A stretch of DNA of 64,000 nucleotides, taken from NCBI RefSeq assembly GCF_000378225.1, contig NZ_KB905143.1:248001-312000 (forward strand), given 5' to 3'. Both the position numbers and the translations under genes were made by a program. This stretch comes from Methylophilus methylotrophus DSM 46235 = ATCC 53528. Lineage in GTDB: Bacteria; Pseudomonadota; Gammaproteobacteria; Burkholderiales; Methylophilaceae. The notes below the pieces were generated by a model that was given only the letters and a program-made list of their open reading frames with translations, had not been told where the DNA came from and did not search any database. This document shows, in pieces, positions 53,171 through 63,513 of this stretch (the stretch's first letter is position 1; each line of letters starts with the position of its first letter).

Positions 53171-53419
53171 ATGCTGATTTCAAATGAAAAAATTCAGGAA
53201 TTATCTTTAAAAATCAAACAACTAATCGAATCAAGCCCCATTTCAGAGCTAAATAACAACTTGCATGCACTAATTCAGGGCGCACTCACCAAAATGGAAC
53301 TTGTTTCGCGTGAAGAATTCGATATCCAATCTGCATTATTAGCGCGCACGCAAGAGCAATTAAAACGTCTTGAAGAAAAAATCAGCCAGCTTGAAGAAGG
53401 GCAGGCATCCAGAAAGTAA
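53171..53419 (+). CDS. ubiK: Ubiquinone biosynthesis accessory factor UbiK (BMFP-domain protein)
   Basis: An 82-residue coiled-coil protein starting at ATG 53171, which has AAAGGAG upstream; an in-frame ATG at 53111 is not supported. The C-terminal helix LVSREEFDIQSALLARTQEQLKRLEEKI (shown here in pieces: REEFDIQSALLARTQ and RLEEKISQLE) is the BMFP/YqiC signature. UbiK helps the aerobic ubiquinone-synthesis complex. It lies 45 bp before comM, an arrangement common in Betaproteobacteria. Confidence 0.9.
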   Translation: MLISNEKIQELSLKIKQLIESSPISELNNNLHALIQGALTKMELVSREEFDIQSALLARTQEQLKRLEEKISQLEEGQASRK

Positions 53420-53464
53420 AAATTAATTTACAATTGTTAGCATTCCATTATTGAGGAGTGCGCT

Positions 53465-53581
53465 ATGAGTCTGGCGGTGTTATACAGTCGCGCGTTAAGC
53501 GGCATGGAGGCGCCAGAAGTGGTGGTAGAAGTCCACTTGGCGAATGGACTACCCAGCTTTACCATTGTTGAAACATATTGA
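53465..53581 (+). pseudogene. comM: comM, 5' fragment, interrupted by the integrated element
   Basis: ATG 53465 opens the N-terminus of the Mg-chelatase-like ATPase ComM (YifB): MSLAVLYSRALSGMEAP and LPSFTIV match the family. After 35 codons plus one base the frame enters the element at 53571 and ends three codons later (Glu-Thr-Tyr-stop). Joining base 53570 to base 62120 restores a continuous 1500-bp frame of 499 codons. ComM is a hexameric helicase that aids branch migration during natural transformation. Confidence 0.93.
53564..53580. other. Left attachment junction (attL)
   Basis: The shared 7-bp ATTGTTG (53564-53570) ends comM sequence; element sequence AAACATATTG follows. The same 7 bp recurs at 62113-62119. 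Confidence 0.8.
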
Positions 53582-53986
53582 AACTTTAAGCCTTAGCATT
53601 TTTTCAAATATACAAATGCCCCAAGCTGGTGCATTAAGAAGAATGTAACAACTCCCTGCAGACTAGGAATAACTTCATGATTTAACGAACATCCCTGAGT
53701 TTCAAAGTCGAATCTTCTCGTGTTGCAAATTTCTACAGCTTCCTTTCTGACCCTCTTGCACCAAATTGCACTATGGCGCTAATAAATCTTCTGCTATCCA
53801 ATAATGTCCAACTAACCCTTTATGGACTCTTAAAAAAGATTTAATAAATGATTAAGATGAATTCAAGGAATTTGATGCCTGGAAATATGGCAAAAGCAAA
53901 AAGGCAGCCCAGTGCTGACTTTTTTGTTTTAACATTGGCCCATATATCCAATTTCAAATAATTTAAAAATTATCGGGAGCTAATCT
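53571..53986 (+). other. Non-coding left end of the element (mmeI leader)
   Basis: 416 bp without a convincing gene. It is A+T-rich and contains short frames only. A CAGC/GCTG dyad followed by six T (about 53905-53926) could be a weak terminator that isolates mmeI from readthrough. The mmeI promoter presumably lies in the last 60 bp, which are very A+T-rich; a GGGAG ribosome site (about 53975-53979) precedes the GTG start. Confidence 0.5.
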
Positions 53987-56746
53987 GTGGCTTTAAGCTG
54001 GAACGAGATAAGAAGAAAAGCTATTGAGTTTTCTAAAAGATGGGAAGACGCCTCAGATGAAAACAGTCAAGCCAAACCCTTTTTAATAGATTTTTTCGAA
54101 GTTTTTGGAATAACTAATAAGAGAGTTGCAACATTTGAGCATGCTGTGAAAAAGTTCGCCAAGGCCCATAAGGAACAATCTCGAGGATTCGTAGATTTGT
54201 TTTGGCCTGGCATTCTTCTTATTGAAATGAAAAGCAGAGGTAAAGACCTCGACAAAGCGTATGACCAGGCACTTGATTACTTTTCTGGCATTGCAGAAAG
54301 AGACTTACCCAGATACGTTTTAGTTTGCGACTTCCAGCGTTTCAGATTAACAGACCTAATAACAAAAGAGTCAGTTGAATTTCTTTTAAAGGACTTATAC
54401 CAAAATGTGAGGTCTTTTGGTTTTATAGCTGGTTATCAAACTCAAGTAATCAAGCCACAAGACCCTATTAATATTAAGGCGGCTGAACGGATGGGTAAGC
54501 TTCATGACACCCTGAAGTTGGTTGGATATGAGGGACACGCTTTAGAACTTTATCTAGTGCGTTTACTTTTTTGCTTATTCGCAGAAGACACAACTATTTT
54601 TGAGAAAAGTTTATTCCAAGAATATATCGAGACAAAGACGCTAGAGGACGGCAGTGACCTTGCACATCATATCAATACACTTTTTTATGTTCTCAATACC
54701 CCAGAACAAAAAAGATTAAAGAATCTAGACGAACACCTTGCTGCATTTCCATATATCAATGGAAAACTTTTCGAGGAGCCACTTCCGCCAGCTCAGTTTG
54801 ATAAAGCAATGAGAGAGGCATTGCTTGACTTGTGCTCATTAGATTGGAGCAGGATTTCACCAGCAATATTTGGAAGTTTATTCCAAAGCATTATGGATGC
54901 TAAAAAGAGAAGAAATCTTGGGGCACACTACACCAGCGAAGCAAATATTCTCAAGTTAATCAAGCCATTGTTTCTTGACGAGCTCTGGGTAGAGTTCGAG
55001 AAAGTTAAAAATAATAAAAATAAATTACTAGCGTTCCACAAAAAACTAAGAGGACTTACATTTTTCGACCCTGCATGCGGTTGCGGAAATTTTCTTGTAA
55101 TCACATACCGAGAACTAAGACTTTTAGAAATTGAAGTGTTAAGAGGATTGCATAGAGGTGGTCAACAAGTTTTGGATATTGAGCATCTTATTCAGATTAA
55201 CGTAGACCAGTTTTTTGGTATCGAAATAGAGGAGTTTCCCGCACAGATTGCTCAGGTTGCTCTCTGGCTTACAGACCACCAAATGAATATGAAAATTTCA
55301 GATGAGTTTGGAAACTACTTTGCCCGTATCCCACTAAAATCTACTCCTCACATTTTGAATGCTAATGCTTTACAGATTGATTGGAACGATGTTTTAGAGG
55401 CTAAAAAATGTTGCTTCATATTAGGAAATCCTCCATTTGTTGGTAAAAGTAAACAAACACCGGGACAAAAAGCGGATTTACTATCTGTTTTTGGAAATCT
55501 TAAATCCGCTTCAGACTTAGACCTAGTTGCTGCTTGGTATCCCAAAGCAGCACATTACATTCAAACAAATGCAAACATACGCTGTGCATTTGTCTCAACG
55601 AATAGTATTACTCAAGGTGAGCAAGTATCGTTGCTTTGGCCGCTTCTGCTCTCATTAGGCATAAAAATAAACTTTGCTCACAGAACTTTCAGCTGGACAA
55701 ATGAGGCGTCAGGAGTAGCGGCGGTTCACTGCGTAATTATCGGATTTGGGTTGAAGGATTCAGATGAAAAAATAATCTATGAGTATGAAAGTATTAATGG
55801 AGAACCATTAGCTATTAAGGCAAAAAATATTAATCCATATTTGAGAGACGGGGTGGATGTGATTGCCTGCAAGCGTCAGCAGCCAATCTCAAAATTACCA
55901 AGCATGCGTTATGGCAACAAACCAACAGATGATGGAAATTTCCTATTTACTGACGAAGAAAAAAACCAATTTATTACAAATGAGCCATCTTCCGAAAAAT
56001 ACTTCAGACGGTTTGTGGGCGGGGATGAGTTCATAAACAATACAAGTCGATGGTGTTTATGGCTTGACGGTGCTGACATTTCAGAAATACGAGCGATGCC
56101 TTTGGTCTTGGCTAGGATAAAAAAAGTCCAAGAATTCAGATTAAAAAGCTCGGCCAAACCAACTCGACAAAGTGCTTCGACACCAATGAAGTTCTTTTAT
56201 ATATCTCAGCCGGATACGGACTATCTGTTGATACCTGAAACATCATCTGAAAACAGACAATTTATTCCAATTGGTTTTGTTGATAGAAATGTCATTTCAA
56301 GTAACGCAACGTATCATATTCCTAGTGCTGAACCTTTGATATTTGGCCTGCTTTCATCGACCATGCACAACTGCTGGATGAGAAATGTAGGAGGAAGGTT
56401 AGAAAGTCGTTATAGATATTCTGCCAGCCTGGTTTACAACACGTTTCCATGGATTCAACCCAACGAAAAACAATCGAAAGCGATAGAAGAAGCTGCATTT
56501 GCGATTTTAAAAGCTAGAAGCAATTATCCAAACGAAAGTTTAGCTGGTTTATACGACCCAAAAACAATGCCTAGTGAGCTTCTTAAAGCACATCAAAAAC
56601 TTGATAAGGCTGTGGATTCTGTCTATGGATTTAAAGGACCAAACACAGAAATTGCTCGAATAGCTTTTTTGTTTGAAACATACCAAAAGATGACTTCACT
56701 CTTACCACCAGAAAAAGAAATTAAGAAATCTAAGGGCAAAAATTAA
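53987..56746 (+). CDS. mmeI: Type IIL restriction-modification enzyme MmeI
   Basis: A 919-residue single-chain enzyme with nuclease, adenine methyltransferase and target-recognition parts. Start is GTG 53987 behind GGGAG. The N-terminal nuclease has D70, E80 and K82 (FVDLFWPGILLIEMK). The methyltransferase has DPACGCGNF (from D361) and NPPF (N481). The target domain has A774, E806, R808 and R810. These positions and the length agree with what I recall of MmeI from M. methylotrophus, which recognises TCCRAC, cuts 20/18 bases away and methylates one strand. Identity comes from memory, not a search. Its stop is 3 bp before the next gene. Confidence 0.93.
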   Translation: MALSWNEIRRKAIEFSKRWEDASDENSQAKPFLIDFFEVFGITNKRVATFEHAVKKFAKAHKEQSRGFVDLFWPGILLIEMKSRGKDLDKAYDQALDYFSGIAERDLPRYVLVCDFQRFRLTDLITKESVEFLLKDLYQNVRSFGFIAGYQTQVIKPQDPINIKAAERMGKLHDTLKLVGYEGHALELYLVRLLFCLFAEDTTIFEKSLFQEYIETKTLEDGSDLAHHINTLFYVLNTPEQKRLKNLDEHLAAFPYINGKLFEEPLPPAQFDKAMREALLDLCSLDWSRISPAIFGSLFQSIMDAKKRRNLGAHYTSEANILKLIKPLFLDELWVEFEKVKNNKNKLLAFHKKLRGLTFFDPACGCGNFLVITYRELRLLEIEVLRGLHRGGQQVLDIEHLIQINVDQFFGIEIEEFPAQIAQVALWLTDHQMNMKISDEFGNYFARIPLKSTPHILNANALQIDWNDVLEAKKCCFILGNPPFVGKSKQTPGQKADLLSVFGNLKSASDLDLVAAWYPKAAHYIQTNANIRCAFVSTNSITQGEQVSLLWPLLLSLGIKINFAHRTFSWTNEASGVAAVHCVIIGFGLKDSDEKIIYEYESINGEPLAIKAKNINPYLRDGVDVIACKRQQPISKLPSMRYGNKPTDDGNFLFTDEEKNQFITNEPSSEKYFRRFVGGDEFINNTSRWCLWLDGADISEIRAMPLVLARIKKVQEFRLKSSAKPTRQSASTPMKFFYISQPDTDYLLIPETSSENRQFIPIGFVDRNVISSNATYHIPSAEPLIFGLLSSTMHNCWMRNVGGRLESRYRYSASLVYNTFPWIQPNEKQSKAIEEAAFAILKARSNYPNESLAGLYDPKTMPSELLKAHQKLDKAVDSVYGFKGPNTEIARIAFLFETYQKMTSLLPPEKEIKKSKGKN

Positions 56747-56749
56747 TTA

Positions 56750-58030
56750 ATGTATTTAACATTAAACCACCCTGATTTATTTCGAATAGTTCAAATGCTT
56801 CCATGTGGACTAATCGCCTTCAATCATATTAAAAAACCGACGCTAGTAATAAAAACTTCCAAAGAGGCCATATTAACCGCCAAAATTAATCGTGAATTTA
56901 AAATATATCTTTATCAAACCACATCGGCTTGTGTTCTAGTAAGTGCATTTTTTGACGATTCTGATAGTCCACTATTCATTACAACACCAATTGTTCGAGA
57001 TGACCAACACTCCTTAGACTTGTTAAGATTTTTAATCAACAATGATTTTACGATTTGCTTCTTTGATGAACTGAACCGAGAATTTCTTTCCGTTAACGCA
57101 ACTGGTAATTTAGTCTCTATCTTTGAGAGCATTCACTTGATGCCACTGCCGAGCCCAGAGGAAGCCCACAATGCATTGAATGAAGCGGAATTTTGGTTCA
57201 GTTTACGCTCAGCTGCTGATGATGAATCATCTATCCAGGTTTCTTTATTGGATAATCTATTTCCTGACGATTTTGTAATTTATGACCTATCCTCAAACAA
57301 AAACGATATGACATCATTGGTTAGAGAAACTAAACCAGGATACTATCAGGAAGCAGATATTGCAAAGTTACTAACAAGAGCTTTTAGTTTGGAAAGCATT
57401 TATCAGAATCCAGTGAAAACAAGCGATTCAAAAGAGTTGGCAGACGTTGTGGTATTCGGCCAAAAGGAAATTTTAATAATTCAAGCTAAAGATAGTGAAA
57501 ACAATCAGAAACAAGTTTTAGAGGTTTCGTTAGACAAGAAATGCGCAAAGTCTTCAAAGAAACTTTCTGAAGCTTTGGCACAACTCACCGACACTATCTT
57601 AACAATATCCAATACACCAATAGTTGATGTTCGGGTTGGTAAGAAAAAATGCACTCTGAACTTTGAGGGAAAGCAGCTTATTGGTATCGTCGTTGTTAAA
57701 GAGCTTTTTAATGATATTTACGATAAATACAGTCAAAAAGTTTTTGAGCATGTAGAGTTGTCTAAAGCACCCATTGTCTTCTTTGACTATCCAGAATTTG
57801 CAAGAATGACATTTCATTGTAATTCTGAGGAATTATTACTTTATGCTTTGCATAGGATATTTAGTTCTGCAATAGAAAATGGAATGTATAAACGATTGAG
57901 ATTTACTCAACCTATCATAACTGATGGTCATGACAGCTACTTCAGGATACAAAACAGGCCCCATTCTGATGAGGCCTATTTAATTTGCACAGAGGATGAA
58001 ATGAAGCTCTCAAATAAGTTTAAAGACTAA
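56750..58030 (+). CDS. Hypothetical protein with nuclease-like D..QxK motif, coupled to mmeI
   Basis: A 426-residue soluble protein that I cannot assign to a named family. Residues 200-250 read as a helix with E201, then ELADVVVFG (D232), then EILIIQAKD (Q245, K247). A D-x12-QxK arrangement in a beta-hairpin is the active-site pattern of Mrr-type PD-(D/E)xK nucleases. Residues 1-190 and 260-426 have no recognisable domain. ATG lies three bases after the mmeI stop with no ribosome site of its own, so translation is probably coupled. Composition is A+T-rich like mmeI. It may assist or back up MmeI, but that is inference. Confidence 0.75.
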   Translation: MYLTLNHPDLFRIVQMLPCGLIAFNHIKKPTLVIKTSKEAILTAKINREFKIYLYQTTSACVLVSAFFDDSDSPLFITTPIVRDDQHSLDLLRFLINNDFTICFFDELNREFLSVNATGNLVSIFESIHLMPLPSPEEAHNALNEAEFWFSLRSAADDESSIQVSLLDNLFPDDFVIYDLSSNKNDMTSLVRETKPGYYQEADIAKLLTRAFSLESIYQNPVKTSDSKELADVVVFGQKEILIIQAKDSENNQKQVLEVSLDKKCAKSSKKLSEALAQLTDTILTISNTPIVDVRVGKKKCTLNFEGKQLIGIVVVKELFNDIYDKYSQKVFEHVELSKAPIVFFDYPEFARMTFHCNSEELLLYALHRIFSSAIENGMYKRLRFTQPIITDGHDSYFRIQNRPHSDEAYLICTEDEMKLSNKFKD

Positions 58031-58079
58031 ATTTATATTTTCCTCAGTATCTTAAAAACAATATTCATTAAATTGGAAA

Positions 58080-58112
58080 GCCCGCAATGATTGTTGCAGT
58101 ATCAATGCGGGC
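58080..58112 (+). terminator. Dyad after the mmeI operon
   Basis: GCCCGCA (58080-58086) and TGCGGGC (58106-58112) form a perfect 7-bp stem with a 19-nt loop 50 bp past the stop. No T tract follows, so termination is unproven. Confidence 0.35.
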
Positions 58113-58609
58113 ATCAGTATCCAGCTCTTGCAATACACGGAAGTATCAAGAAGCGAATCAGGATTCTAACCATACCTTTTTAATTGCAACAATCTAATTT
58201 CCATAACATGTGTAGCTACATCGAAAAAAAGACCTCGAAGAGGTTGCAAGAGCGTCCAGCTCGCGGCATCAAAAGACCCTAGTCTTTTGACAAGGGGGAG
58301 CCAAAAAACTGAGGTGGAGGAGCTTGCCGACGAAGCCAGGAAGCCCCAGCGTCCGGCAGATTTTTGGGGGCGAAGCCCGCATGTCCCCGAAGAGGGGGGG
58401 GCCCCACGGTGTGGCGTGGGGCCCCCCCGTCGAAGACGGGCAAGCCCAGAGGGGAAAGCCCCTAGGCTTTGAGGCGACGAATGGCGTCCAGCCAAGCGGA
58501 GGAGTCGACCCGACAAACCAATGAAAACTCGTTATCTATACGTTTTGATGTCCCTACCGCATAAACGGTAATGGGGACAGCTAAAAAACGGATTGAGAAG
58601 GAGTTTTAA
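58113..58609. other. GC-rich block of nested hairpins (possible structured RNA or origin)
   Basis: The stretch 58230-58510 is strikingly G+C-rich inside an A+T-rich element. Hairpins include TCAAAAGAC/GTCTTTTGA (58268-58290), GGGC-GAA-GCCC near 58373, a perfect 13-bp GC-rich stem (58395-58407 with 58416-58428), CCCGTC-GAA-GACGGG (58426-58440), and AAGCC..GAGGGG/CCCCT..GGCTT (about 58443-58470). Several have GAA triloops. Short frames across it show no protein features. It could be a non-coding RNA, a single-strand origin or a mobilisation site. The last 100 bp lead into the next gene. Confidence 0.6.
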
Positions 58610-59227
58610 TTGGTTGAAACAAAAAAAACGGGCTTGAATCGTGAGATTGAAGCCCTCCGAAATATCAATGCTTTCGGTTTTCTGACAACGAAAAGCATTG
58701 CAAATTTGACAGTCGAAGTCGCAGGCGATTCGGCTCTGAAATCTGCAAAAAGAGTTGTCAGAAGACTAATAAAAAAAAAGGAAATTCTGAGACGTAAAAG
58801 CATCGAAGGAATTAATTGCTTTGTTTTGAGTGAAAAAGGAGCAAGAAGAGTTGCAGACCTTTGTTTCTTCAAAAAAGCAAAAAGGGGAGTTGAACTTGAA
58901 ACAAGATTTGCAAAGCGTCAAGAAATCATCGTCAGTGCTCTTGTCAGAATCAGAAACAAAATGCAGGGAGAAATTGAAGTTCTCGGCGAGATTTGGTTGA
59001 AAAGAAATCAAGATGGATGGTTTTCTGGGTTACATGGCATTGCGTGGAACAAGAAAACAAAAAAAGGAATTGCGGTTTTTTTCATTTCTTCAGTTAGAAC
59101 AGAAACAGCAGTGCATGTGCTGAACTTACGGACGAAGTGGAAAAGGCACATTGAAGAAATTCATCTAATTGCGTTTCAAGAAGAGACAACGCAAGCACTG
59201 TTGAAAAGTATCAAAAGACTTTTATGA
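58610..59227 (+). CDS. Winged-helix protein resembling the Replic_Relax family
   Basis: A 205-residue basic protein. The start is TTG 58610 with AAGGAG eight bases upstream. Residues 10-90 form a winged-helix DNA-binding domain (LRNINAFGFLTTKSIANL, AKRVVRRLIKKKEILRRK, NCFVLSEKGARRVADL). The rest is an alpha/beta region (GEIEVLGEIWL, WFSGLHGIAWNK, KKGIAVFFISSVR). Plasmid and integrative-element proteins of the replication-relaxation type have this layout, so a role in replication or mobilisation is plausible. That assignment is tentative. It is convergent with the rep-like gene across a terminator. Confidence 0.65.
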   Translation: MVETKKTGLNREIEALRNINAFGFLTTKSIANLTVEVAGDSALKSAKRVVRRLIKKKEILRRKSIEGINCFVLSEKGARRVADLCFFKKAKRGVELETRFAKRQEIIVSALVRIRNKMQGEIEVLGEIWLKRNQDGWFSGLHGIAWNKKTKKGIAVFFISSVRTETAVHVLNLRTKWKRHIEEIHLIAFQEETTQALLKSIKRLL

Positions 59228-59230
59228 AAG

Positions 59231-59252
59231 AAGCCCCGTGAGGGGCTTTTTT
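59231..59252 (+). terminator. Terminator between the winged-helix and rep-like genes
   Basis: AAGCCCC (59231-59237) pairs with GGGGCTT (59242-59248) around a GTGA loop, and six or more T follow. It starts three bases after the winged-helix gene stop. Confidence 0.9.
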
Positions 59253-59257
59253 GTTGG

Positions 59258-59929
59258 TTAAAATTCTTCGTCAAATTCGTCATCGTCAGATACTCCTACC
59301 CAGTTTCTCGAGTCGACAAACTCGTCAGGCAGCTCTTCAGAAGAAAAAGCATGTGAACCTGCTAGAGGTGCAGTGTCAGCTGCTTCAGGCCACATTTCAA
59401 GCACGGAAGGAAGGTCGTCAGCATCTTCAACGACATCGAAGTGAGGAGCGTTTTGAGCGGCTTTGTCCGCTGCTTTTTGAGCGTAATTTTCACGAACAGC
59501 TTGACGGGTTGCCTCAGCTCCGGCTAAATATTCGGGTGTTCCTCGGTCGGTGGTGGGACGGGACTTCAAGCCGGCGGGTAAAGTGAGTTGATATTTGTTG
59601 GTGCGATTGACACCTGACTTTTTCGAGACAATCAGCAATCCGTGGGCTTTCAATATCTTGACCGCGTCTTTGACAGCTTCAGTGTCAGGTGTGCCTTTGG
59701 CTCTGTTTGAGAACTTGCCACGCAGCTCGGCAATATTGGCGTAAGATGGTTCAAAGCCAGGATGAATGCGACCATCTCGCAGTGCTTTACTGCTGAGAAT
59801 CAGAAAGACTTCAAGTTGAACTTTCGTCAAACCGAGGGAAAGAATTTGAATAGGAAATCGTGCGAATGGCTCTTTGTTGCCGTTAGATTTGACCCAGTCT
59901 TCAAACTGGGAGGTTGTTTGATTCTTCAT
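59258..59929 (-). CDS. Plasmid replication-initiator-like protein (N-terminal winged helix)
   Basis: Predicted 223 residues from ATG 59929 (MKNQTTSQFEDW), which has GGAG upstream; ATG 59962 is an alternative. Residues 25-125 look like the winged-helix domain of plasmid Rep or phage replisome-organiser proteins (FARFPIQILSLGLTKVQLEVFLILSSKAL, here abbreviated by its ends FARFPIQIL and FLILSSKAL; VKDAVKILKAHGLLIVSKK). The C-terminal 80 residues are Ala-rich, then strongly acidic (ending SDDDEFDEEF). It is transcribed away from the 24-bp repeats 240 bp upstream, the usual rep-iteron geometry. The function is inferred from this. Confidence 0.6.
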   Translation of the reverse strand: MKNQTTSQFEDWVKSNGNKEPFARFPIQILSLGLTKVQLEVFLILSSKALRDGRIHPGFEPSYANIAELRGKFSNRAKGTPDTEAVKDAVKILKAHGLLIVSKKSGVNRTNKYQLTLPAGLKSRPTTDRGTPEYLAGAEATRQAVRENYAQKAADKAAQNAPHFDVVEDADDLPSVLEMWPEAADTAPLAGSHAFSSEELPDEFVDSRNWVGVSDDDEFDEEF

Positions 59930-59962
59930 TGAGGCTCCACATTTATTCTTGAATTTGTTCAT

Positions 59963-60174
59963 TTGAACTGAACGCTCAATGTGTAGTGATTAATTTTAAA
60001 CTTTTTGGAAATTTGCCCCTGCGGTTGAGTGTGCCCCTCCCTCGTTGGCAAACGCGAACGAAGTGAGCTGGAAAGAGACGCTGAGTAGGCGGCCTTTCCC
60101 ATGAGCAGCCCTGAGGGCTGCGAATATTTGATAAGTCTGAAGTTTGTTAATCTGTTTGTATGTTAAGGAGGGGG
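59963..60174. other. Intergenic region upstream of the rep-like gene
   Basis: No gene seen. It contains a perfect 7-bp hairpin GCAGCCC-TGA-GGGCTGC (60103-60119) and other G+C-rich stretches, then an A+T-rich segment (60120-60165) next to the repeats. This mix of dyad, A+T-rich DNA and repeats resembles a plasmid origin. Confidence 0.45.
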
Positions 60175-60270
60175 GATTTACCCCCCACCTTTGGAGGTGA
60201 TTTACCCCCTACCTTTGGAGGTGATTTACCCCCTACCTTTGGAGGTGATTTACCCCCTACCGTTTGAAAG
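60175..60270. repeat. Four 24-bp iteron-like tandem repeats
   Basis: Direct repeats start at 60175, 60199, 60223 and 60247 with exact 24-bp spacing. The unit is GATTTACCCCCTACC followed by TTTGGAGGT. The first copy has one change (C for T) and the fourth diverges after GATTTACCCCCTACC. Each junction contains GGAGGTGAT, a perfect complement of the 16S rRNA 3' end, though no start codon follows within range. They sit upstream of the rep-like gene, as iterons do. Confidence 0.8.
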
Positions 60271-60280
60271 AGAGTTGAAA

Positions 60281-60490
60281 ATGGGATGGCTTCAAAATCT
60301 GATGGACTGGTTCAACACTGACGGAACCCCGATGGTCGGAAATTCGGGAATTGATATTGAAGGAAAGGCGTTTGGAGAAGTGCATCATGAAATGCACTTT
60401 GAGAGCTATGACAACGGAATCGGCAGCGGTTTAAGTAGCTTTGACAGCTTCGGCAGTGGGAGCGGTGGAGGCTTTGGAGGCAATTTGTGA
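60281..60490 (+). CDS. Small Gly/Ser-rich protein
   Basis: A 69-residue protein starting at ATG 60281 (MGWLQNLMDWFNTDG) with a GAAAGAGAG stretch upstream. A longer frame upstream runs through the 24-bp repeats as EVIYPLPL octapeptides and is not believed. The N-terminus is amphipathic, the centre acidic with a His pair, and the C-terminus is SFDSFGSGSGGGFGG. No family recognised. Its stop lies 55 bp from the end of the opposite recombinase gene. Confidence 0.5.
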   Translation: MGWLQNLMDWFNTDGTPMVGNSGIDIEGKAFGEVHHEMHFESYDNGIGSGLSSFDSFGSGSGGGFGGNL

Positions 60491-60544
60491 AATAGGGTGA
60501 AGGGGTTGTTAAGGCAACTTTTTTTACTGCTTTTTGACGGGTAT

Positions 60545-62086
60545 CTAAAAGTCAAAATATTGGCGGATGACGGAAATTTCAAAGGTTTTGGAGTTCTTCA
60601 ATGTGACTTTCAAACTGGAAAGGTCTTCGCTCAAATCAAAGCGTGAAACAATTCGTGAAATCTGATAACGCAGCAAAGAAAGCTTTTCAGAGTCTGCTGA
60701 ACGAATTGCATTGACGAATGGTTCGTCAGCTTTGACCCCCCAATAAACCGCTGTGTCTTTGGTCTCGAGAAGCATTCTTTCGGCAATCTTTTGATGAACC
60801 GTTTTTTCACGTTCAAGGTCTGAAATTCGTTGCAGAATTGAAGCAGGCGTGTCTTCAGCCTTACCTGCTTGAACAAGGTTCAACAAAAGCGAAATCTGTG
60901 CGTCAATCTTCTTAATTGACTCGCGTGCACTATTCTCTGCGTCAAGAAGTTTATCTGAAAAATCATCAAGAGAAACGAGGCCAGGAGCTTCTTCTGACAT
61001 AAAAAACATGACGGTGTCTTCAATTCGTCGACAATCAACTGACGGACATTTTGTAGCGTTCAAGTTGCTACGGCTGCAATAATATCTTGAATAGTCGAGG
61101 TCAAGCCTGGACTTTAATTTGCGATGCAATGAAGCTCCGCACGAACAAAAAAGCAGGCCTTGCAAAAAGTTGCGATAGGCTGAATCTCGTTTTTTTGGAA
61201 ACTCTTTTGATTTGTTGTTGATTTGTTGAACTGCATTGAAGAGTGCTGTCGAGATAACAGAAGGGTAAAAATAAGGTATAGGGTCGCCATGTGGCACCCT
61301 ACGACCAGATTCATTGACTTTATAGGGCTGATATTGACCGATTAAGGCAGCGTTGTTAATCAAACGATTAACAAGGGATAGGTGCCAAATGTCGCCCTTA
61401 CCAGGAACGGACAACTTCAATTCATTGCACTTTCGTGCAATTGCGGTTGCTCCTAGGCCTGACTTTCTCAACTCAAATACAAATTGGATGCTACGGACTT
61501 TGTCCTGTAAAACTTCATATTTTTTACCATCTTCACTGACGCGAAGCCAGCGAGGGCATTCGCGTGTCAAAGGAGTTGCAAACTCTCTCGCATTAGTTTG
61601 TCGTCTGTCCCAATTCGCGGCACTGCGAAGTGCTTTTTTACTACTTTCGTCAAAAGCAACAAGAGTGCTGCTCATGATGCTGAGCATTGCAGCAAATTGC
61701 GTCAAAGATTTTTCGTTGTAAACCTGATTTTTTGCAGTTTCAACAATCAAAATTCCTTTTTGAAGAATAGAGCCGAACAAAGTGACCGCCGAATAAACAT
61801 CAGCACGAGTCAATCGGTCAACAGTTTCAATCAAAAGATAAGAACCGGAAGCGATTTCACCTGAGTCAACGAGGGCAAGAAAAGCAGAAAGTGCACTGCC
61901 TTTTTTAATATTTGAACGACGATAAGCTGATTTTGCAAAATCAGTAAATTCACGTTCGTCCAAAAAAATCTTATTTCGTTTGCAATAATCTCGTGCGGAC
62001 TCGAGCTGACGTCGGATACTGTCGCCGTCTTTTTGCTTTGAAGACGAAAATCGAACATAAGCATAAGCTCGTGGAGTCTGGTTCAT
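60545..62086 (-). CDS. Large serine recombinase (integrase)
   Basis: A 513-residue site-specific recombinase. The N-terminal resolvase domain has AYVRFSSSKQ (nucleophile S14) and SIRRQLESARDYC, with the ETVDRLTR segment (about 87-94). A recombinase domain (about 175-290), a zinc ribbon (C314, C316, C337, C347) and a coiled-coil segment (about 380-450) follow, the standard large serine integrase order. Its start codon is 27 bp from the right core sequence, so the attachment site lies next to its promoter. It should carry out both integration into comM and, with a directionality factor, excision. Confidence 0.93.
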   Translation of the reverse strand: MNQTPRAYAYVRFSSSKQKDGDSIRRQLESARDYCKRNKIFLDEREFTDFAKSAYRRSNIKKGSALSAFLALVDSGEIASGSYLLIETVDRLTRADVYSAVTLFGSILQKGILIVETAKNQVYNEKSLTQFAAMLSIMSSTLVAFDESSKKALRSAANWDRRQTNAREFATPLTRECPRWLRVSEDGKKYEVLQDKVRSIQFVFELRKSGLGATAIARKCNELKLSVPGKGDIWHLSLVNRLINNAALIGQYQPYKVNESGRRVPHGDPIPYFYPSVISTALFNAVQQINNKSKEFPKKRDSAYRNFLQGLLFCSCGASLHRKLKSRLDLDYSRYYCSRSNLNATKCPSVDCRRIEDTVMFFMSEEAPGLVSLDDFSDKLLDAENSARESIKKIDAQISLLLNLVQAGKAEDTPASILQRISDLEREKTVHQKIAERMLLETKDTAVYWGVKADEPFVNAIRSADSEKLSLLRYQISRIVSRFDLSEDLSSLKVTLKNSKTFEISVIRQYFDF

Positions 62087-62095
62087 TGTTTCATT

Positions 62096-62119
62096 ATATC
62101 ATGACGATGACGATTGTTG
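62096..62119. other. Right attachment junction (attR)
   Basis: Element sequence ATCATGACGATGACG is followed by the core ATTGTTG (62113-62119), then comM resumes with GCCTGCCAG. The element supplies in-frame ATG codons at 62101 and 62107. Confidence 0.8.
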
Positions 62120-63513
62120 GCCTGCCAGAAACCGAGGTCAAAGAAAGCAAGGATCGGGTGCGGGCGGCCATTCAGACTGCCCAATTCGAATTCCCTGCCC
62201 GCCGTATCACTGTTAACCTTGCCCCCGCTGATTTACCGAAAGAAGGGGGGCGTTATGACTTGCCGATTGCGCTCGGTATTTTAGCTGCCTCTGGTCAGCT
62301 TCCCAAAAAAGCCCTGGCGGGTTATGTCATCGCTGGTGAGTTGGCATTGACGGGGGCGTTGCGACCCATACGCGGGGCGCTCGCCATGACCTATCAATTG
62401 CTGCAAGATCAAACAAATAAAAGAGCCGCCATCCTGCCCCAAGAAAGTGCATATGAAGCCAGTTTGGTAGAGGGCTGCACCATTTTTGCTGCGGATAGTT
62501 TGCTGGCAGTCTGCGCGCATCTTTCTGACAAACAGGCGCTTTCTGTACACCCAAAGGTGACTCCGATTGAACACGCAGCCCTTGCAGATTACGAGGAAGT
62601 AAAGGGGCAGCTGCGTGCCAAGCGTGCCTTGGAAATTGCAGCCGCAGGGCAACACAGTCTATTAATGAGTGGTCCGCCAGGCACAGGCAAAAGTATGCTG
62701 GCACAGCGATTTGTCGGCATCTTGCCAGAGATGTCAACACAAGAGGCCCTTGAAAGCGCAGCCATCCTCTCCCTGAGCGGCCAGTTTCCTGCCGCACACT
62801 GGAAAAAACGGCCATTCAGAGCGCCACATCACACGGCTTCCGCGGTCGCCCTGGTAGGAGGAGGCAGTGTGCCGCGCCCCGGAGAAATCAGCCTGGCTCA
62901 TCACGGCGTGCTGTTTCTTGATGAGCTACCCGAATTTGACCGTAAGGTGTTGGAGGTACTACGCGAACCGTTAGAGAGTGGGCATATCACGATTTCCCGG
63001 GCGGCCAGGCAAGCGACTTTTCCGGCCCAATTCCAACTGATTGCTGCCATGAACCCTTGCCCTTGTGGCTATTACGGCCATTACAACCAGCGCTGCCGCT
63101 GCACACCGGAACAGATTCTTCGCTACAAAAACAAACTTTCCGGGCCGTTATTGGACCGCATTGACATGAATATAGAGGTCCCTGCGCTTAAGCCGGAAGA
63201 AATCAGCCATCCCCACCCCGGTGAAAGCAGCATGAACATGCGCTCCAGAGTAGAGCTTGCCAGGCAGCGACAGCTGCAGCGTCAGCAAAAAACGAATGCG
63301 GCACTGGGCCCATTGGAAATTTCCGCCTTTTGCCAATTGAGCGAACAGGCCAACCACCTGTTACAGACAGCCTTACAAAAGTTCTCGCTTTCGGCCCGCA
63401 GCTATCACCGCATCCTGAAAGTGGGCAGGACCATTGCCGACCTGGCTGACTCGCCGCATATTAGCGATGCACACATTGCGGAAGCGCTACAATATCGGCG
63501 TTATGACTATTGA
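62101..63513 (+). pseudogene. comM: comM, 3' fragment (Mg-chelatase-like ATPase)
   Basis: The remaining 464 codons of ComM from VGLPETEVKESKDRVRAAI onward. It has the Lon-S5-like N-terminal part (NLAPADLPKEGGRYDLPIA), AAA+ Walker A SGPPGTGKS, sensor and GVLFLDELPEFDRKVLEVLREPL Walker B (residues read in two pieces, LFLDELPEF and KVLEVLREPL), and the Mg-chelatase C-terminal domain with cysteines NPCPCGYYG and RCRC. ATG 62101, supplied by the element, is in frame (MTMTIVG), so a product missing about 33 residues could be made, but there is no ribosome site. An in-frame ORF further upstream (61993) lies in the recombinase gene. Confidence 0.9.

Follow-up and report, generated by a model that had tools for sequence, protein, structure and literature searches.

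The restriction-modification enzyme MmeI is much used and much studied, and the neighbor of its gene at the native locus seems to belong to an uncharacterized nuclease family that, judging by record titles, extends over several phyla. The question raised by this locus is whether the neighboring gene works together with mmeI in one system or is a separate gene that travels with it. In the 64,000-nucleotide stretch of Methylophilus methylotrophus DNA analyzed here (the window), mmeI lies on the forward strand at 53987-56746 and encodes a type IIL/IIG enzyme (PADLOC model REase_MTase_IIG, 1277.6 bits). Its product scores 2123.9 bits over residues 1-919 against the MmeI chain of PDB entry 5HR4, as high as its self-score of 2123.5, so the window represents the native mmeI locus or nearly so. 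The TAA stop codon of mmeI occupies 56744-56746, and the adjoining gene (56750-58030, forward strand) starts with ATG three bases further on and specifies 426 amino acids, the spacing and length given in the initial annotation of this DNA. The G+C content is 0.36 to 0.39 across 53-58 kb and mostly 0.48 to 0.56 in the intervals up to 52 kb and after 62 kb, in agreement with the further claim that the two genes share an A+T-rich composition. The ORF and its start codon, its relatives, and an AlphaFold2 model together define the gene product as a two-domain protein with a PD-(D/E)xK-like nuclease domain. mmeI and its neighbor are likely carried on one transcript, and the locus illustrates that a three-base gap is poor evidence for joint function.

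PMC4833311 describes MmeI as carrying both activities in one chain and as methylating adenine in one strand. Against this background, the initial annotation had suggested that the adjoining gene might be a conserved second gene of the system. We searched for linkage between the two families from both sides, in flanks of up to 6-8 kb, some of which end at contig ends. When all ORFs around 81 related loci were searched, an MmeI-like gene was found at only one (L045, Phyllobacterium), where it is divergent and 1.7 kb away. From the other side, no relative of the 426-residue protein was encoded in any of 34 other strong MmeI-family regions (out of 48 matches outside the window in a sample of genomes from the same class). 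Among the MmeI regions from genomes that hold a relative, one of six (out of nine matches) carried the family gene, and this was the L045 locus again. Likewise, one of the six strong MmeI genes in 49 relative-holding genomes lies within 10 kb of a family gene. MmeI-type genes occurred in 7 of these 49 genomes, against 38 of the 369 in the class sample, which is a loose comparison since the two sets differ in taxonomy. Given how rarely the two genes co-occur from either side, linkage to MmeI is a property of neither family, and the idea of a conserved second gene is not borne out. The two proteins also lack homology over their full length, and each occurs in places where the other is missing.

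A simpler account of why the two genes lie together comes from the DNA that surrounds them. The 5' piece of comM (53465-53569, forward strand) matches comM of related bacteria up to a junction, where it ends in the core sequence ACCATTGTT (53561-53569), and the gene resumes 8549 bases further on, after ACGATTGTT at 62110-62118. The remainder of comM (62110-63513, forward strand), identified by this junction and by the Pfam families ChlI, Mg_chelatase, and Mg_chelatase_C, is thus separated from its start by an inserted element of 8549 bp (53570-62118). In all six relatives compared, the counterparts of the two flanks directly adjoin each other, or share a few bases, within an unbroken comM. A large serine recombinase gene (60545-62086, reverse strand; Pfam Resolvase, Recombinase, and Zn_ribbon_recom, all over cut-off) occupies the right end of the element. 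Searching 149 other genomes of the same family for this recombinase gave matches in seven, the best at about 30% identity, and no close relative. A single 8.55-kb serine-recombinase element thus carries both mmeI and the 426-codon gene as cargo, and this accounts for their common composition and close spacing without any shared function. Among 12 relatives of the same genus, the comM match is full-length in 10 and split in two (G093 and G139), in which the break lies at about codon 276 of the query, unlike the break described here; comM seems to be a repeated insertion target. Within the A+T-rich element there is a G+C-rich stretch at 58166-58516, and an Rfam search of 53400-62300, which includes it, gave no match. 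Two ORFs at 58610-59227 and 59258-59962 have no Pfam match over cut-off and are, we presume from their appearance by eye, plasmid-replication-like, and a short in-frame repeat, VIYPLPLE, is found from 60191 onward.

No curated family covers the 426-residue protein; Pfam gave only SduA_C at E 0.052, below cut-off, and NCBIfam and PADLOC gave no match at E 1 or less. Relatives were nevertheless present in four plasmid records, in 59 contigs from 84,980 GTDB species genomes, and in 17 IMG/VR contigs. The GTDB and IMG/VR scans used two short peptide patterns, one containing QAKDS, and catch only relatives with one of the two, so the family is larger than these counts. By record titles, the GTDB relatives are mostly Pseudomonadota, and others come from metagenome-assembled genomes of Desulfobacteraceae, Desulfobulbaceae, Acidobacteriales, Acidimicrobiia, and Pseudobacter. 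A relative was found in 1 of 368 other genomes of the class sample (a record already counted among the 59 GTDB contigs) and in none of 149 other genomes sampled from the family to which the window belongs. The distribution is patchy, as for a mobile gene. No relative was detected by tblastn in deposited phage records when the window protein and one prophage relative were used as queries, and a literature search by the relatives' accessions, the PHROG number, and titles and the beginnings of abstracts, with the original MmeI papers outside its scope, found no mention of the family. The sole library family matched by many members is PHROG 30399 (37 of 51 at E 0.01 or less, best 7.5e-10), which carries no function assignment and whose match to the window protein is limited to residues 141-320 (E 3.7e-5).

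The 81 related loci (L002 to L082) yielded 77 full-length sequences, after exclusion of one truncated by a contig end (L061) and three in which the gene is split into two ORFs (L041, L057, and L063). The split copies may reflect sequencing errors or the decay of a gene that is costly or dispensable. With the window protein, the full-length set comprises 78 sequences, which fall into 34 groups at 60% single linkage; L006 and L040 are apparently one record, and a genome locus may be counted again among the IMG/VR loci in some cases, such as L039 and L071, whose scores are equal. For alignment (A2), 50 of the 77 relatives were kept after an 85% identity filter and after exclusion of four loci from other tools; 50 relatives are only 28 to 42% identical to the window protein. 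The median dN/dS in 74 pairs of closer relatives, none of which includes the window protein, was 0.125 (range, 0.073 to 0.269), and the family is under purifying selection.

E201, D232, Q245, and K247, the residues singled out in the initial annotation, stand where it placed them, and each is identical in all 78 full-length sequences. The complete set of positions identical in 78 of 78 is G20, K35, D69, P74, G197, E201, P221, E229, D232, Q245, K247, D248, K264, Q278, E318, and F320. Because one scan pattern contains QAKDS, the conservation of Q245 and K247 (within QAKD) is partly ascertained; this pattern is missing in 18 of the 77 relatives, which keep the Q and the K all the same, and E201, E229, and D232 lie outside both patterns. 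With identity at these positions in 78 of 78 sequences, even though 50 relatives are only 28 to 42% identical to the window protein overall, the conservation of the four residues exceeds chance. An AlphaFold2 model based on 51 sequences (pLDDT 86.6, pTM 0.85) places them in a predicted nuclease core, delimited by model secondary structure and Foldseek, at residues 196-346 (57335-57787, forward strand). The modeled core consists of a helix (196-208), three strands (233-236, 240-247, and 309-316), a second helix (321-338), and a last strand (342-346), with a long helix (261-288) between the second and third strands. E201 (codon at 57350-57352, forward strand) lies in the first helix, D232 (57443-57445, forward strand) just before the first strand, and Q245-A246-K247 (57482-57490, forward strand; A246 in 76 of 78) at the end of the second strand. 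In this predicted structure the order helix-strand-strand-strand-helix-strand, with acidic residues and lysine in canonical places, is that of the PD-(D/E)xK superfamily. A core of this type in the C-terminal part, with the residues named, had been anticipated correctly, and its span is about 196-346 rather than the 195-310 first given.

Comparison of the model with known structures supports this assignment for the core. Foldseek returned eight PDB matches at E 0.001 or better (best 4.6e-5), and all eight are chains of the nicking endonuclease Nt.BspD6I, the best solved match. The small subunit R.BspD6I2 matched at E 4.9e-3, and further matches were to Lamassu LmuA (E 0.016) and to a protein of the R2 retrotransposon (E 4.4e-3, prob 0.60). 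Nt.BspD6I and R.BspD6I2 are about 10% identical to the 426-residue protein, and the TM-scores of the best matches, taken on the query, do not exceed 0.30; the likeness is thus confined to the core. Unlike Nt.BspD6I, the protein described here has no matching recognition domain and is not encoded in a restriction-modification operon with its own methylase. A sequence search of the PDB gave no credible match, and a viral structure library gave none at E 0.001 or better, with models labeled as restriction endonucleases at E 0.003 to 0.008. The N-terminal domain (residues 1-172; 56750-57265, forward strand), which contains the invariant G20, K35, D69, and P74, was predicted with pLDDT 93.7 when modeled alone; its best PDB match has E 0.23, with none reaching 0.001. 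Its invariant residues suggest a conserved target or partner. Strand-helix-strand units in this domain, seen by eye, resemble an internal duplication, and a comparison of the two halves gave only P 0.015, so a duplication is not claimed.

Among known defense proteins, the closest in design is Shedu (SduA), which is likewise a single-gene product of about 400 amino acids with an N-terminal domain and a C-terminal PD-(D/E)xK nuclease domain. E. coli SduA (8ps4) is a weak Foldseek match to the model (rank 13, E 0.018, prob 0.41). By sequence, however, membership in Shedu was rejected: SduA_C (PF14082) scores 14.2 bits on the window protein against a cut-off of 27 and matches 1 of 51 family members at E 1 or less, and hhalign against five Shedu proteins gave a score of 13.2 (probability 0.1%), which lies within the range of five shuffled controls (12.5 to 25.8). 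The two families also differ in the active site, which has the form ExK in Shedu (E278 and K280, invariant in alignment A7) and QxK here, and in the N-terminal region. The QxK form, or more fully D..QxK, is of the kind found in Mrr-type cores. Pfam gave no Mrr or NERD match to the window protein at E 1 or less. NERD (PF08378) was matched at this threshold by 10 of the 51 family members (best E 0.0054), the window protein not among them, and families that are plainly unrelated, Ssu72 (best 0.0026) among them, were matched equally well.

The neighborhoods of the relatives change from one group to the next. When 863 neighboring ORFs were clustered, no neighbor family occurred in more than 2 of the 34 groups of relatives. 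In one set of up to 12 closely related loci, the opposite strand carries P2-type tail genes, of which one representative matches Pfam Tail_P2_I; in another, of about 8 to 10 Pseudomonas-type loci, the common neighbors are three tyrosine recombinases, thymidylate synthase, and genes further downstream. Elsewhere, the family gene is preceded by type I restriction-modification genes and an SprT-like gene (L003), by a TIR-domain gene (L004), by a GajA/GajB pair (L066 and L069; convergent in L045), or by a UvrD-type helicase gene (L028 and L037). PADLOC also identified OLD (L049), type III restriction-modification (L055), and PDC-S28 (L052) as neighbors. One relative is carried on an 8.1-kb mobilizable plasmid (L005), and relaxase genes are neighbors in L005 and L026. 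Twenty neighboring proteins were chosen by hand for naming, 10 with Pfam and 10 with PADLOC; six of the latter matched defense models and four had no match, and among the former some are ordinary (alpha-amylase and Na+/H+ antiporter) and three had no match. PADLOC applied to 293 neighboring proteins gave many helicase and ATPase models, generic helicases included, and each model had at most three members among the 25 listed of 275 and 317.

Genome-wide gene searches, covering 49 of the 59 genomes that hold a relative (E 1e-8 or better, with pieces merged, so that 32 GajA rows became 30 genes), placed 5 of 30 GajA/OLD-type genes within 10 kb of the family gene, with 0.12 expected under uniform placement. 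We turned to this test once Gabija genes had come to light at some of these loci, which makes its P value unfair, and the uniform background ignores the clustering of mobile genes; the result thus supports residence in defense islands and not a functional pair. HsdR-type SWI2/SNF2 genes showed no enrichment within 10 kb in the same 49 genomes (0 of 53, with 0.26 expected), a result unchanged by a 54th gene (E 8.2e-9, on another contig) that the count omits.

Because the family travels on mobile DNA, usually without mmeI, the gene looks like a separate defense gene and not the second half of MmeI. Its settings include the 17 IMG/VR contigs, four plasmids, prophages, and transposon-like elements. 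The gene, its family, the invariant site, the predicted fold, the element, and the changing neighborhoods are direct computational observations, and with these in hand we favor, on balance, the reading that the protein is a stand-alone two-domain cargo nuclease that protects against phages or rival mobile elements and acts independently of MmeI. The family is unnamed; by analogy it may be Shedu-like in the way it works, and it is not Shedu by sequence. It would probably be directed against phages or mobile elements, as the single-gene Shedu nuclease is. In Shedu, the N-terminal region clamps DNA ends and the PD-(D/E)xK domain nicks near them, according to PMC12904381. In the protein described here, the N-terminal domain, of unmatched fold, would probably sense or grip the target, and the C-terminal domain with its E..D..QxK site would probably cut or nick DNA with a divalent metal, which E201 and D232 would bind while K247 helps hydrolysis, Q245 presumably replacing the acidic residue usual at this position. 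Phages, transposons, and plasmids may gain as much from the gene, in competition with rivals, as the cell does, and beside mmeI the gene would be a second, independent cargo gene of the 8.55-kb element, probably on the same transcript.

This preferred reading has to be weighed against three others. If the protein were instead a functional component of the MmeI system, cleaving, for instance, DNA that carries MmeI nicks or lacks MmeI methylation, or otherwise aiding MmeI in restriction, the three-base gap, the common A+T-rich composition, and the presence of an MmeI-like gene 1.7 kb away at L045 would be in keeping with this, yet 80 of the 81 related loci lack such a gene in the available flanks, all 34 other MmeI-family regions lack the family gene, none of the 149 other sampled genomes of the window's family has it, and a single MmeI chain already has both activities. 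We consider such a partnership very unlikely. Any shared function of the two genes, including a change in how MmeI works, is unsupported, as is the proposal that the protein cuts DNA left exposed by one-strand methylation, since most relatives have no MmeI nearby. The other idea put forward in the initial annotation, a separate modification-dependent defense, fared better in its first part: a separate defense fits the observations better than the one-strand methylation idea, and there is no sign of modification dependence. An Mrr-like type IV nuclease, dependent on DNA modification, could be argued for from the D..QxK site and from the invariant N-terminal residues, which suggest a specific ligand. 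The lack of any Mrr-family match to the window protein in Pfam at E 1 or less speaks against it, and so do the neighbors of the family gene, which include MmeI, type I (L003), and type III (L055) restriction-modification systems; residence beside adenine-methylating systems makes a general attack on adenine methylation improbable. We rate the type IV assignment as quite unlikely.

Somewhat less unlikely, though still not what we expect, is that the protein has no strict defense role and either serves mobile elements in DNA processing or counters rival plasmids and superinfecting phages. Such a role would suit a gene found on prophages, transposon-like elements, a small mobilizable plasmid, and the comM element, and the relaxase neighbors in L005 and L026 would fit it as well. 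The carriers, however, are unrelated in kind, genes for transfer or replication do not recur (no neighbor family is present in more than 2 of the 34 groups), and action against rival elements overlaps with the preferred reading of a stand-alone protective nuclease. That reading also has a bolder extension, in which the family would be a widespread new class of single-gene immune nucleases whose N-terminal domain, with a new fold, recognizes a feature of invading DNA or of its replication, and the mmeI locus would be a two-system defense element. This extension is possible, and we put it forward tentatively, as the less probable form; if it were true, one branch of an immune nuclease family would have ridden unnoticed beside mmeI. 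Should the protein prove to be anti-phage, phage defense would gain a single-gene nuclease whose N-terminal domain is unmatched, and the mmeI locus would be explained as a small mobile defense element and not as one restriction-modification gene.

In the context of genes that accompany MmeI homologs, the genome from which the window comes contains a second MmeI-family gene (L132; G000:C5:35267-47878) that is followed by two ORFs, which we take by eye to be helicase and nuclease genes. These two ORFs recur after MmeI-like genes in 14 of 40 and 8 of 40 MmeI regions, respectively, and the set may be a real multigene MmeI-like system.
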